This document shows, one piece after another, positions 17,276 through 41,890 of a DNA stretch of 64,000 nucleotides. Origin of the DNA: Staphylococcus sp. IVB6240 (GTDB lineage: Bacteria > Bacillota > Bacilli > Staphylococcales > Staphylococcaceae); NCBI RefSeq assembly GCF_025558425.1, contig NZ_CP094718.1:1240001-1304000 (forward strand), written 5' to 3'. The notes beneath the pieces were generated by a model. It had not been told where the DNA came from. It was given only the letters and a program-made list of their open reading frames with translations, and ran no database searches. Both the position numbers and the translations under genes were made by a program. Position 1 is the first letter of the stretch, and the number at the start of each line of letters is the position of its first letter.

Positions 17276-17592
17276 GCATTTTAGATAAAATGACAGAAAT
17301 AGAGGGCCACTTAGATGTTTTAGCAAAATCTCGAAAAATTGGTAAGGCTCAGAGTCTTCAACCACTCGATGATTATTATCAGCTACTCATAAACTATTTT
17401 TGTTTCATTAATGATATTCAAGATATATCAGAAGCACCGCTAAATACATTGAAAATCGTTCCATTCAACTTTGATGAACGCCTCGAATACATTCAAGAAC
17501 GTAAACACCATTATATGGGCTATCAACAAATGAAAACATTAAAATCTGAATTGATAAAAATGAATGCCGCATATCGTGCAAAAAACAACTGA
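17272..17592 (+). CDS. YpoC-like hypothetical protein
   Basis: This small 106-residue soluble protein starts on an ATGA overlap with nth, so it is translationally coupled. It matches by position the YpoC proteins that follow nth in Bacillus. The central segment PFNFDERLEYIQERKHHYMGYQQM is the most distinctive part. No catalytic motif or membrane segment is visible, and the function is unknown. A strong stem-loop follows its stop codon. Confidence 0.75.
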   Translation: MSILDKMTEIEGHLDVLAKSRKIGKAQSLQPLDDYYQLLINYFCFINDIQDISEAPLNTLKIVPFNFDERLEYIQERKHHYMGYQQMKTLKSELIKMNAAYRAKNN

Positions 17593-39241: not shown

Positions 39242-40312
39242 ATGGTTAAAATCGCATTTACAGGTGGCGGCACAGTCGGTCATGTATCCGTAAACTTAAG
39301 TTTAATTCCAGCCGCTTCAGAAAAAGGATATGAAACGATTTATATCGGATCTAAAGAAGGTATTGAACGTGAAATGATCACAACACAATTACCAGATACG
39401 CCTTATTATCCAATTTCTAGTGGAAAGTTACGTCGTTATCTCTCAAAAGAAAACGTAAAAGATATTTTTAAAGTTTTAAAAGGAATTCTAGATGCACGTA
39501 AAATTTTAAAACGTGAAAAACCACAATTAATCTTTTCAAAAGGTGGATTTGTTTCAGTGCCTGTTGTCCTAGCAGCAAAGTCATTGAACATTCCTGTCAT
39601 CGTACATGAATCTGACCTTACACCAGGCTTAGCGAATAAAATTGCCATGAAGTTTGCTAAAAAAATCTATACGACTTTTGAAGATACTTTAAAATATGTT
39701 CCTGAAAATAAAGGAGTCTTTGTAGGCGCAACAATTCGCGAAGATCTAAAAAATGGAAGCAAAGAACGTGGTTATGCTTTAACAGGATTCGAAGCATCTA
39801 AAAAAACATTACTTGTCATGGGTGGCAGTTTAGGAAGTAAAAAAATAAATGAAACGCTTCGACAAGAACTGGATCATTTATTAGAAACATACCAAGTCAT
39901 TCATCTAACAGGCAAAGGCTTAAAAGATGATCAAATTCAAAAACCAGGCTATATCCAATATGAATTTGTGACTGATGAATTAACGGACTTATTAGCCATC
40001 ACAGAAACAGTCGTTTCACGTGCAGGTTCAAATGCCATTTATGAGTTTTTAACCCTGCGCATTCCAATGCTTTTAATTCCTTTAGGGTTAGATCAATCTC
40101 GTGGCGATCAAATTGATAATGCAAACTACTTTGCGCAACAAGGTTATGCGATGACTATTGATGAATCGACATTATCAGAAGCGACAATGACGACTTCTTT
40201 AGAGGGACTTGAACAAACAAGAGAACAACTTATTGAACGTATGCAAGCATTTACAGAAAGCTATACGAAAGAAGCATTACTAGAAAAAATCATCCATGAC
40301 GGTCTATCATAA
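39242..40312 (+). CDS. murG: UDP-N-acetylglucosamine transferase MurG
   Basis: The 356-residue peripheral membrane GT-B enzyme converts lipid I to lipid II. The N-terminal loop reads GGGTVGHVSVN, where many species have GGTGGHVxP; this form is normal in staphylococci. HESDLTPGLANKIA, MGGSLGSKKIN and the C-terminal donor-binding VVSRAGSNAIYEFL are intact. AGAGGGAGA precedes ATG 39242. The gene is outside any dcw cluster, as is typical for Staphylococcus, and lies in a ctpA-GNAT-murG-PAP2 run. Confidence 0.96.
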   Translation: MVKIAFTGGGTVGHVSVNLSLIPAASEKGYETIYIGSKEGIEREMITTQLPDTPYYPISSGKLRRYLSKENVKDIFKVLKGILDARKILKREKPQLIFSKGGFVSVPVVLAAKSLNIPVIVHESDLTPGLANKIAMKFAKKIYTTFEDTLKYVPENKGVFVGATIREDLKNGSKERGYALTGFEASKKTLLVMGGSLGSKKINETLRQELDHLLETYQVIHLTGKGLKDDQIQKPGYIQYEFVTDELTDLLAITETVVSRAGSNAIYEFLTLRIPMLLIPLGLDQSRGDQIDNANYFAQQGYAMTIDESTLSEATMTTSLEGLEQTREQLIERMQAFTESYTKEALLEKIIHDGLS

Positions 40313-40322
40313 GGAGATACAC

Positions 40323-40940
40323 ATGACACAGTGGAAAAGAATATTATGTATGTTTATTTGTATGGTGTTATTTGTATTCATCGCATTTTTCCATACATCT
40401 GACTTAGGTGTATGGATTGATGATCATGTCTATAAATGGATTTTTTCAACGCATAGTGATGTCATGACATGGGTATTCCTTGTGGTTACACATATTGGAG
40501 AAGTGATAGGTATGGCCATCTTAACAACAATGATGGTGTTGTTATTAATGAAATATGGCTATCGAACTGAAGCACTTTATATAGCACTTACTATGATTCT
40601 TGCTGGTTTAACAAATCCGATTTTAAAACATATTTTTAATCGTGAACGTCCTAGTATCATGCGTTTGATTGATATTTCAGGCTTCAGCTTTCCTAGTGGC
40701 CACGCAATGGGATCAACGGCTTTCTTTGGTAGTCTCCTCTACATTGCTATTAGAATTTTAAAAGGAAAGTCAAAAGTTTTTATGATGGTGTTTTCAATTT
40801 TAATGATCTTATTAATTTGTGCATCACGTATTTATTTAGGTGTTCATTACCCAACAGATATTTTAGCAGGGATTTTAGGTGGCTTATTCTTTGTAATCTT
40901 CACTCAGATGATTTTAAGAAAACCTCTTAATATTTCCTAA
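40323..40940 (+). CDS. PAP2 family membrane phosphatase (PgpB-like)
   Basis: The 205-residue membrane protein has about six hydrophobic segments and the three PAP2 phosphatase motifs: KHIFNRERPS, FPSGHAMGS with the catalytic histidine, and SRIYLGVHYPTDILAG. Members dephosphorylate phosphatidylglycerol-phosphate or undecaprenyl pyrophosphate; the substrate here is not shown. Its place after murG would suit lipid-carrier recycling. ATG 40323 follows AAGGAGAT. Confidence 0.9.
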   Translation: MTQWKRILCMFICMVLFVFIAFFHTSDLGVWIDDHVYKWIFSTHSDVMTWVFLVVTHIGEVIGMAILTTMMVLLLMKYGYRTEALYIALTMILAGLTNPILKHIFNRERPSIMRLIDISGFSFPSGHAMGSTAFFGSLLYIAIRILKGKSKVFMMVFSILMILLICASRIYLGVHYPTDILAGILGGLFFVIFTQMILRKPLNIS

Positions 40941-40942
40941 TC

Positions 40943-40985
40943 AAATAAAAGCCGTTGCAACATGTCAGTGCAACGGCTTTTATTT
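40943..40985. terminator. Shared terminator of the PAP2 gene and the minus-strand small RNA
   Basis: A perfect 17-base stem (40943-40959 with 40969-40985) built on AAAAGCCGTTGCA, with nine-base loop and A/T runs on both sides. It can stop the PAP2 transcript (+) and the predicted IsrR-like RNA (-). Confidence 0.9.
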
Positions 40986-41109
40986 ATAAGTTTAATTTAA
41001 TATCAACGAAATTTTTATACGGGCATATAAAAGGGGATATTATTTGAAAATGACTCAATCGTTAGAACGAATAGTGTGGGGGGAATCGTTGTGATTGATA
41101 ATCATTTTC
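40943..41109 (-). ncRNA. isrR: Probable IsrR-like Fur-controlled small RNA
   Basis: On the minus strand, TTGACA (41143-41138), a 16-base spacer and TATAAT (41121-41116) predict a start near 41109. The 17-base terminator stem ends the RNA near 40943, giving about 165 bases. The RNA has no plausible reading frame but has C-rich stretches CCCCCC (41083-41078), CCCC (41036-41033) and CCC (41023-41021), suited to pairing with Shine-Dalgarno sequences. Two Fur boxes overlap the promoter. From recall, S. aureus IsrR lies between arlR and pgpB and represses iron-using pathways; position, size and layout agree. Confidence 0.78.
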
Positions 41110-41142
41110 AATTACATTATAACTCATTGAGAATAATTGTCA
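41096..41142 (-). promoter_or_regulatory. Small RNA promoter with two Fur boxes
   Basis: TGATAATCATTTTCA at 41096-41110 matches the 7-1-7 Fur consensus at 13 of 14 informative positions. TGAGAATAATTGTCA at 41128-41142 matches at 12. Their centres are 32 bases apart. On the minus strand the second box covers the -35 element and the first covers the start site. A plus-strand promoter TTGATA (41095-41100), 17 bases, TATAAC (41118-41123) overlaps and could feed arlRS. Confidence 0.75.
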
Positions 41143-41212
41143 ATTAGAAAGTTAGATTTTTTAACTTTCTCAAATAAATATTATGACTTATGATTATAGA
41201 TGAGGTGACAAC

Positions 41213-41890
41213 ATGAAAAATGTATTAATTATTGAAGATGAACAAAACTTAGCACGCTTTATTGAACTTGAATTGAAACACGAAAATTATGAAGTGGCAA
41301 TTAAAAATGATGGGCTATCAGGTTTAAACACAGCATTACAACAAGACTTTGATATTATTTTATTAGACTTGATGTTACCCGGTATTGATGGATTAGAGGT
41401 GTGCAAACGACTGCGTAAGCAAAAAGATACACCCATTATTATGATTACAGCAAAAGGGGAAATATATGACAAAGTTCTAGGACTTGATTATGGTGCCGAT
41501 GATTATATTGTGAAACCTTTTGAAATTGAAGAACTATTAGCGAGAATGCGTGCGCTTGTGAGACGTTCTTCTGATGATCAACATAGTTCAAAAGACATAG
41601 TTGAAGTCAGTGGTATCGTCATTGATAAGAGTGCTTTTCACGTTTCATATGGCGAGCAAAAAATAGAACTGACAAAAACAGAATTTGACTTACTACTCGT
41701 CCTTGCAGAAAATAAAAATCATGTCTTGCATCGTGAACAAATTTTAAATCACGTATGGGGCTATGATTCAGAAGTTGAAACAAATGTCGTCGATGTCTAT
41801 ATTCGATATTTGCGCAATAAATTAAAAGCCATTCAAAAAGAGAAAATTATTGAAACAGTTCGTGGCGTAGGGTATGTGATACGTCAATGA
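41213..41890 (+). CDS. arlR: Response regulator ArlR
   Basis: This 225-residue OmpR/PhoB-type regulator has a receiver domain with phospho-accepting Asp52 in LLDLMLPG, Thr in MITAKG and Lys in [13 protein letters not shown] winged-helix DNA-binding domain occupies the second half ([32 protein letters not shown]). ArlRS governs adhesion, autolysis and virulence genes in S. aureus. GAGGTGACA precedes ATG 41213. It overlaps arlS by four bases. Confidence 0.95.

Follow-up and report, generated by a model that had tools for sequence, protein, structure and literature searches.

The closest described relative of the gene analyzed here is the small RNA IsrR (also named Tsr25 or S596) of Staphylococcus aureus. 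According to PMC9410917, isrR is present in every Staphylococcus genome screened, and Northern blots were obtained for S. aureus, S. epidermidis, S. haemolyticus, and S. lugdunensis. SucA and aconitase are described as likely IsrR targets in S. aureus (PMC11257911), and a 2026 review presents IsrR as conserved across Staphylococcus and without homology to iron-regulated RNAs elsewhere (PMC13343841). The original prediction valued the copy studied here as a comparison outside S. aureus, a comparison that the screen in PMC9410917 had already made and that is thus not new.

We analyzed a window of 64 kb, the whole stretch of DNA under study, and located the gene within the gap between arlR and pgpB, divergent from arlR (Table 1). 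Its location, Rfam match, promoter, Fur boxes, C-rich regions, and terminator identify it almost certainly as an IsrR ortholog, the identity that had been proposed from the sequence. The match to RF02578 (tsr25) spans the full model (1–181 of 181; E = 1.3e-12) with a score of 61.1 bits, 1.9 bits short of the curated cut-off of 63, and because of this shortfall a standard Rfam scan misses the window isrR. All further Rfam matches at the stretch were under their own cut-offs, the best being ohsC_RNA (36.8 bits) over the terminator end. In a search from which the genome of the window and its near copies were excluded, ArlR of the window was closest, among named records, to S. rostri, S. microti, and S. 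americanisciuri (93–95%), and we have little doubt that the gene is the isrR of a Staphylococcus related to these species.

Table 1 Features of the isrR locus in the window (positions in the window), and clade-specific pairs of acnA site and first C-rich region
Feature	Position	Strand	Basis or remark
isrR small RNA gene	40943..41109	minus	predicted ends; RF02578 match 40944-41119 plus fold
Sigma-70 promoter TTGACA-16-TATAAT	41116..41143	minus	consensus match; -35 TTGACA 41143-41138, -10 TATAAT 41121-41116
Fur box 1	41128..41142	minus	covers -35; 2/14 mismatches to TGATAATnATTATCA
Fur box 2	41096..41110	minus	transcript start; 1/14 mismatches; also 5' arm of H1
Stem-loop H1	41044..41111	minus	first C-rich region in loop; fold z = -5.64 for 41040-41111
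CRR1 (C6)	41078..41083	minus	C-run, within H1 loop
CRR2 (C4)	41033..41036	minus	C-run
CRR3 (C3)	41021..41023	minus	C-run in H2 loop
Intrinsic terminator	40943..40985	minus	perfect 17-bp stem, symmetrical; query also matches its own opposite strand
pgpB, PAP2 phosphatase gene (flank)	40296..40940	plus	ORF; homologs adjoin isrR in relatives
arlR, response regulator gene (flank)	41213..41890	plus	start 70 bp from isrR -35
acnA site / CRR1, Macrococcus-like and Mammaliicoccus			AGGGGGAAC / GTTCCCCCT
acnA site / CRR1, g10			AGAGGGGGC / GCCCCCTCT
acnA site / CRR1, g14			GGGGGCT / AGCCCCC
acnA site / CRR1, g11			GGGGGCAA / TTGGCCCCC (one extra base)

The predicted promoter, with its 16-nt spacer, matches the consensus at all 12 positions, and no other perfect sigma-70 promoter with a spacer of 16–18 nt occurs in the window on either strand. 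Fur boxes were scored against TGATAATnATTATCA, which we take to be the 15-mer Fur-box consensus; sites with at most two mismatches occurred at three places in the window, namely the two isrR boxes, spaced 32 bp, and position 17367. Both boxes had been placed over the promoter, which is correct for box 1 over the -35, while box 2 proved to lie downstream of the -10, at the transcript start. The three C-rich stretches were found as runs of six, four, and three, and the terminator stem has two perfect 17-base arms (40985–40969 and 40959–40943) around a loop of 9, which a simple terminator scan with a loop limit of 8 passed over; the symmetrical terminator is probably shared with pgpB. As had been stated, the gene lacks a reading frame of its own, with no minus-strand ORF of at least 25 aa overlapping 40943–41143, and a single plus-strand ORF of 30 aa with a TTG start overlaps the stretch. 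Of 2000 dinucleotide shuffles of 40943–41142 (200 nt), one contained two Fur boxes, one a perfect promoter, and 71 a C6 run.

The predicted transcript is ~167 nt long, versus 174 nt in S. aureus. Region 40943–41109 folds at -44.8 kcal/mol (z = -8.35), with none of 200 shuffles as good, and the prediction contains H1, an H2-like hairpin, and the terminator; a separate H3, a hairpin reported as poorly conserved in sequence (PMC9410917), is absent. Covariation in H1 was nearly nil (one of seven pairs in one alignment, none of seven in another), as is expected because its 5' arm doubles as a Fur box, and conservation of that arm is therefore no proof of an RNA helix. The isrR -35 and Fur box 1 are just 70–85 bp from the arlR start (41128–41213), and because of this closeness Fur might affect arlR as well. 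Between the isrR promoter and arlR we also noted an inverted repeat, GAAAGTTA...TAACTTTC (41149–41172), partly kept in two other genomes (G045 and G074). Elsewhere in the window, the Rfam 'sRNA' S414 matched 39770–39944 on the minus strand, antisense within murG; this match recurred in a Macrococcus-like genome (L170, 64.9 bits), and its conservation may merely reflect the murG coding sequence.

Within the genus, RF02578 matched all 84 Staphylococcus genomes at E ≤ 1e-3 and none of 14 controls, with 74 of the 84 above the curated cut-off and 10 below it. The window copy is thus an ordinary one, one more IsrR hidden by the Rfam cut-off. We detected both flanks (arlR plus a pgpB-like gene) at 73 of the 84 loci, one of them with a partial pgpB match, and a single flank at the other 11, some of which are cut by a contig edge. 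A Fur-box pair with at most three mismatches per box, spaced 32–33 bp, was present in 82 of the 84 loci, the exceptions being G056 and the contig-edge locus of G079, and a C-run of at least four followed within 60 nt of a Fur box in all 84. At one locus (L158 of G033) CRR1 is down to C4 and CRR2 up to C6, an apparent exchange of roles.

RF02578 also gave weak matches in all eight Mammaliicoccus (g4) genomes, which include M. stepanovicii, M. lentus, M. sciuri, and M. fleurettii. Their arlR–pgpB gap holds two head-to-tail units in 8/8, each with a promoter, Fur boxes, and H1. The second, pgpB-proximal unit combines the IsrR locus and Fur boxes with CRR1 to CRR3 (8/8) and a terminator, and we count it as IsrR; CRR2, CRR3, and a strong terminator are confined to it, the first (extra) unit having neither CRR2/3 nor an evident terminator in any of the eight, and the first promoter may read through both units. 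G103 has lost CRR1 from its first unit, and in G104 the second unit has broken Fur boxes and TATAAG replacing TATAAT. After unit 1, all eight genomes carry an AT-rich stretch of 40 nt that barely varies and contains a 9-bp inverted repeat (columns 121–162 of alignment A3); it is more conserved than the RNA immediately before it and possibly an operator or the arlR promoter. S. stepanovicii, now in Mammaliicoccus, was among the inputs of the 2022 study (PMC9410917), in the main text of which we found no mention of an isrR duplication. The open-licence PMC literature yielded no publication on IsrR in Mammaliicoccus, M. sciuri, or Macrococcus and, by title and start of abstract, none on a Fur-regulated small RNA of the IsrR kind in Macrococcus or Salinicoccus.

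In 16 genomes of the same family that we call Macrococcus-like (g2, g3, and g5; this name and Salinicoccus-like for g14 were inferred), an IsrR-like gene adjoins pgpB in the pgpB–arlR gap, in all 16 on the arlR strand, opposite to Staphylococcus. RF02578 at E ≤ 0.1 misses 15 of the 16, and in six relatives scanned with Rfam at the same threshold tsr25 was the only family at the isrR-like gene, matching in two. CRR1 is present in 16/16, and CRR2 with an intact CRR3 in 15/16; with the locus, Fur box, and terminator they thus have the features by which we recognize IsrR. The CRR1 and its flanks are the same as in Mammaliicoccus. The exceptional genome, L170 (G098), has lost CRR2 and has GCCT instead of GCCC at CRR3. 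The pgpB–arlR gap in g2 and g5 measures 811–858 bp and, in the two genomes listed, contains an ORF of 198–199 aa between isrR and arlR that looks acetyltransferase-like by eye.

We extended the search with a covariance model (R1) built from 47 Staphylococcaceae cores, those left of 104 after redundancy removal in alignment A1; core extraction had left out G007, G080, G090, and G091, for which the expression was too strict, and unit 1 of G100, and had produced one false row (G013). At E ≤ 0.01, R1 detected IsrR-like RNAs in 136 of the 157 genomes of Staphylococcales: in 108/108 Staphylococcaceae, a non-independent count since this family supplied the 47 training rows, and in 28 of the 49 remaining genomes, which supplied no training rows (g14 12/12, g10 9/9, g11 6/6, g6 1/1). 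It matched nothing at this threshold in 15 f3 genomes, in the listed genomes of g9, g12, and g13, or in one further genome outside the listing. The 12 Salinicoccus-like (g14) copies, all on the arlR strand, and the g6 match were in the pgpB–arlR gap, although synteny had not been used to find them; the g6 genome (G108) was set aside, having that location without a clean CRR1. Around the RNA of g10 and g11 (15 genomes), neither arlR nor pgpB was found in the fetched stretches; at the four of these 15 loci for which neighbors were listed, a glyoxalase/dioxygenase-superfamily gene precedes the RNA and has an HxlR regulator gene on its far side. This setting, noted at L198 (g10) and L207 (g11) and read by Pfam scan at one locus per genus, is common to g10 and g11 and would be a second home that the RNA has in each of them. 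Each copy in g14, g10, and g11 has a start-site Fur box and H1, together with a single C-rich loop; in all 27 genomes only CRR1 of the three C-rich regions is present and the CCCC...TGCCC part is absent, and these RNAs are classed as IsrR-like, not IsrR. Alignment A2 contains 37 of 41 selected rows, five g3 genomes having been missed by the H1 expression. A model of the H1 core (R2) found nothing convincing outside Staphylococcales among 398 Bacilli genomes. It did give matches at E ≤ 0.01 in 47 genomes outside the order, the best at 1.1e-5; ten of these matches were read by eye, all were Fur boxes with no C-run of four inside the match, and an extension beyond the order was rejected. E-values of both models are rough.

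We propose that IsrR is probably older than the genus, with IsrR-like genes across Staphylococcaceae and three further genera of the order. In the fuller form of this proposal, which we think rather probable, IsrR is an order-wide iron-sparing RNA of Staphylococcales whose minimal version has a Fur box plus a hairpin and a single C-rich loop, and this loop and the ribosome-binding site of aconitase have evolved together; the gene would have flipped within the pgpB–arlR gap, relocated in two genera, and given rise to a tandem pair in Mammaliicoccus, with a first unit that has no terminator and is maybe transcribed into the second. The orientation of the outgroup copies hints at the arlR strand as the original one for isrR. 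In a tree of ArlR and PAP2 (50 of 51 rows used; 14 of the 84 Staphylococcus genomes selected, 13 used), Mammaliicoccus grouped with the Macrococcus-like clade at only 63%, and because of this low value a history with one flip is neither supported nor excluded.

For the targets, we read acnA start sites in 72 genomes and found that the letters flanking the G-run vary by clade, largely as CRR1 does, with Staphylococcus more varied than the other clades. In some Staphylococcus the longest acnA run is in CRR2 (10–11 pairs; G011 and G030), and in G041 a 10-nt run ends in the CRR2 C-run (labelled CRR3 by the script). In the window species, the acnA match is weak: CRR1 finds a run of only six Watson–Crick pairs there, and the whole core reaches -12.7 kcal/mol at best. 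From these sequence comparisons, aconitase is a probable ancient IsrR target, and the acnA data outside Staphylococcus would point to CRR1 as the pairing region; probing had suggested that CRR1 does not base-pair with target (PMC9410917). The suggested pairing with odhA (sucA) turned out not to be special, and odhA was rejected as main target in the window: when 60 script-guessed gene starts were ordered by plain duplex energy, without accessibility, it came 14th. AAAGGGG before ATG was rejected as a target screen in the window's genome, its 89 sites (15 in the control) being mostly general ribosome-site signal.

Chance might explain the agreement between CRR1 and acnA, if every clade simply passed down a loop and a G-rich site of its own and any C-run can pair with such a site. 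We consider this unlikely, if a serious contender. The true clade assignment ranked first of 120 by both mean duplex energy and mean longest Watson–Crick run (69 of the 72 genomes, with the second unit scored in Mammaliicoccus), but with only five clades 1/120 is the smallest value possible, and related genomes are not independent. G090, G091, and G108, without a CRR1 row, were outside this scoring, though the first two do show CRR1 and a matching acnA site. Own-genome runs reached 7–10 in all 22 Macrococcus-like and Mammaliicoccus pairs, 9 in 9/9 g10 pairs, and 7–8 in 6/6 g11 pairs, and the own loop came first on energy and run length alike for the Macrococcus-like/Mammaliicoccus and g11 sites, and on energy for the g10 site, all of which argues against chance. 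Not every clade prefers its own partner, however: the Macrococcus-like/Mammaliicoccus loop pairs slightly better with the g10 site (-21.5 kcal/mol, run 9.4) than with its own (-19.1, 9.2), the g14 loop also pairs better with the g10 site than with its own (-18.5, 8.0 versus -16.4, 7.0), and the Staphylococcus site scores -14.9 kcal/mol with its own loop versus -17.4 with the Macrococcus-like/Mammaliicoccus loop and -16.4 with that of g14. Chance is also favored by miaB, rejected as a second co-varying target, which has GGG-GGGG runs and no clade-matching flanks (8 starts read, 10 genomes searched), and by AGGGGGC before ATG, which was unselective in g14, g10, and g11 (for example, 77 sites versus 27 in the control in G146). 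By contrast, when six Macrococcus-like/Mammaliicoccus genomes were searched for AGGGGGAAC with an ATG no more than 9 nt behind it, there were 16 placements, against zero in the reversed control. These represent 14 sites, 1–4 per genome, one of them the isrR gene itself; the remaining 13 are acnA (in five of the six genomes), RNase R, a glutamate symporter, a zinc peptidase, a DUF2626 protein, one protein without a Pfam match, and, from G095, a cytochrome c, SucA, and a Rieske-domain oxidoreductase.

Another objection is that the RNAs outside Staphylococcus are not homologous to IsrR, sharing a Fur box at the start that folds back into a stem, with C-rich loops arising repeatedly. The conserved 5' arm indeed coincides with the Fur box, covariation is all but missing from H1, genes other than pgpB and arlR adjoin the RNA in g10 and g11, the CCCC...TGCCC part is missing from g14, g10, and g11, and the rough R1 E-values for g11 are only 6e-4 to 6.5e-3. 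Yet repeated origin is distinctly improbable given the shared location in the pgpB–arlR gap in Mammaliicoccus, the Macrococcus-like clade, and g14, the retention of CRR1–CRR3 in 8/8 Mammaliicoccus second units and 15/16 Macrococcus-like genomes, and the H1-core search of 398 Bacilli genomes, in which nothing outside the order was stronger than 1.1e-5 and the ten matches read were Fur boxes with no C-run of four inside the match. The stretch could also be no more than an arlR control region and a pgpB terminator, the apparent gene not being transcribed, in keeping with a symmetrical terminator at whose edge pgpB ends and with Fur boxes 71–117 bp from the arlR start. This we regard as scarcely credible, because the perfect promoter points away from arlR, RF02578 matches 84/84 genomes with a C-run after the boxes in 84/84 loci, and Northern blots exist for four species (PMC9410917).

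By analogy with S. aureus, we infer Fur control and translational repression for the window IsrR. Fur with iron would occupy the two boxes and shut the isrR promoter; under iron shortage IsrR would be made with its C-rich loops exposed, and these would pair with G-rich Shine–Dalgarno sequences and, as the S. aureus literature implies, stop translation of iron-using and TCA-cycle enzymes. Should the IsrR-like RNAs prove real, one could test across genera where an iron-sparing RNA came from and how its targets changed, and the joint changes of loop and aconitase site amount to a natural mutational test of the pairing C-rich region. This cross-genus comparison matters more than the window copy itself.

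Compared with IsrR/Tsr25/S596 of S. aureus, the window gene sits at the equivalent locus and has the same promoter, pair of Fur boxes, three C-rich regions, H1 carrying CRR1 in its loop, and terminator; it differs in its Rfam score under the cut-off. Its arlR–pgpB gap is shorter (275 bp, versus 786 bp in G006, the top RF02578 scorer), and its predicted acnA pairing is weaker. RyhB, PrrF, and FsrA are, like IsrR, Fur-repressed RNAs that lower iron enzymes including aconitase, but according to statements in PMC9410917 and PMC11257911 they are unrelated to IsrR in sequence. PrrF and RyhB are doubled in some species (PMC9410917), as isrR is in Mammaliicoccus here.
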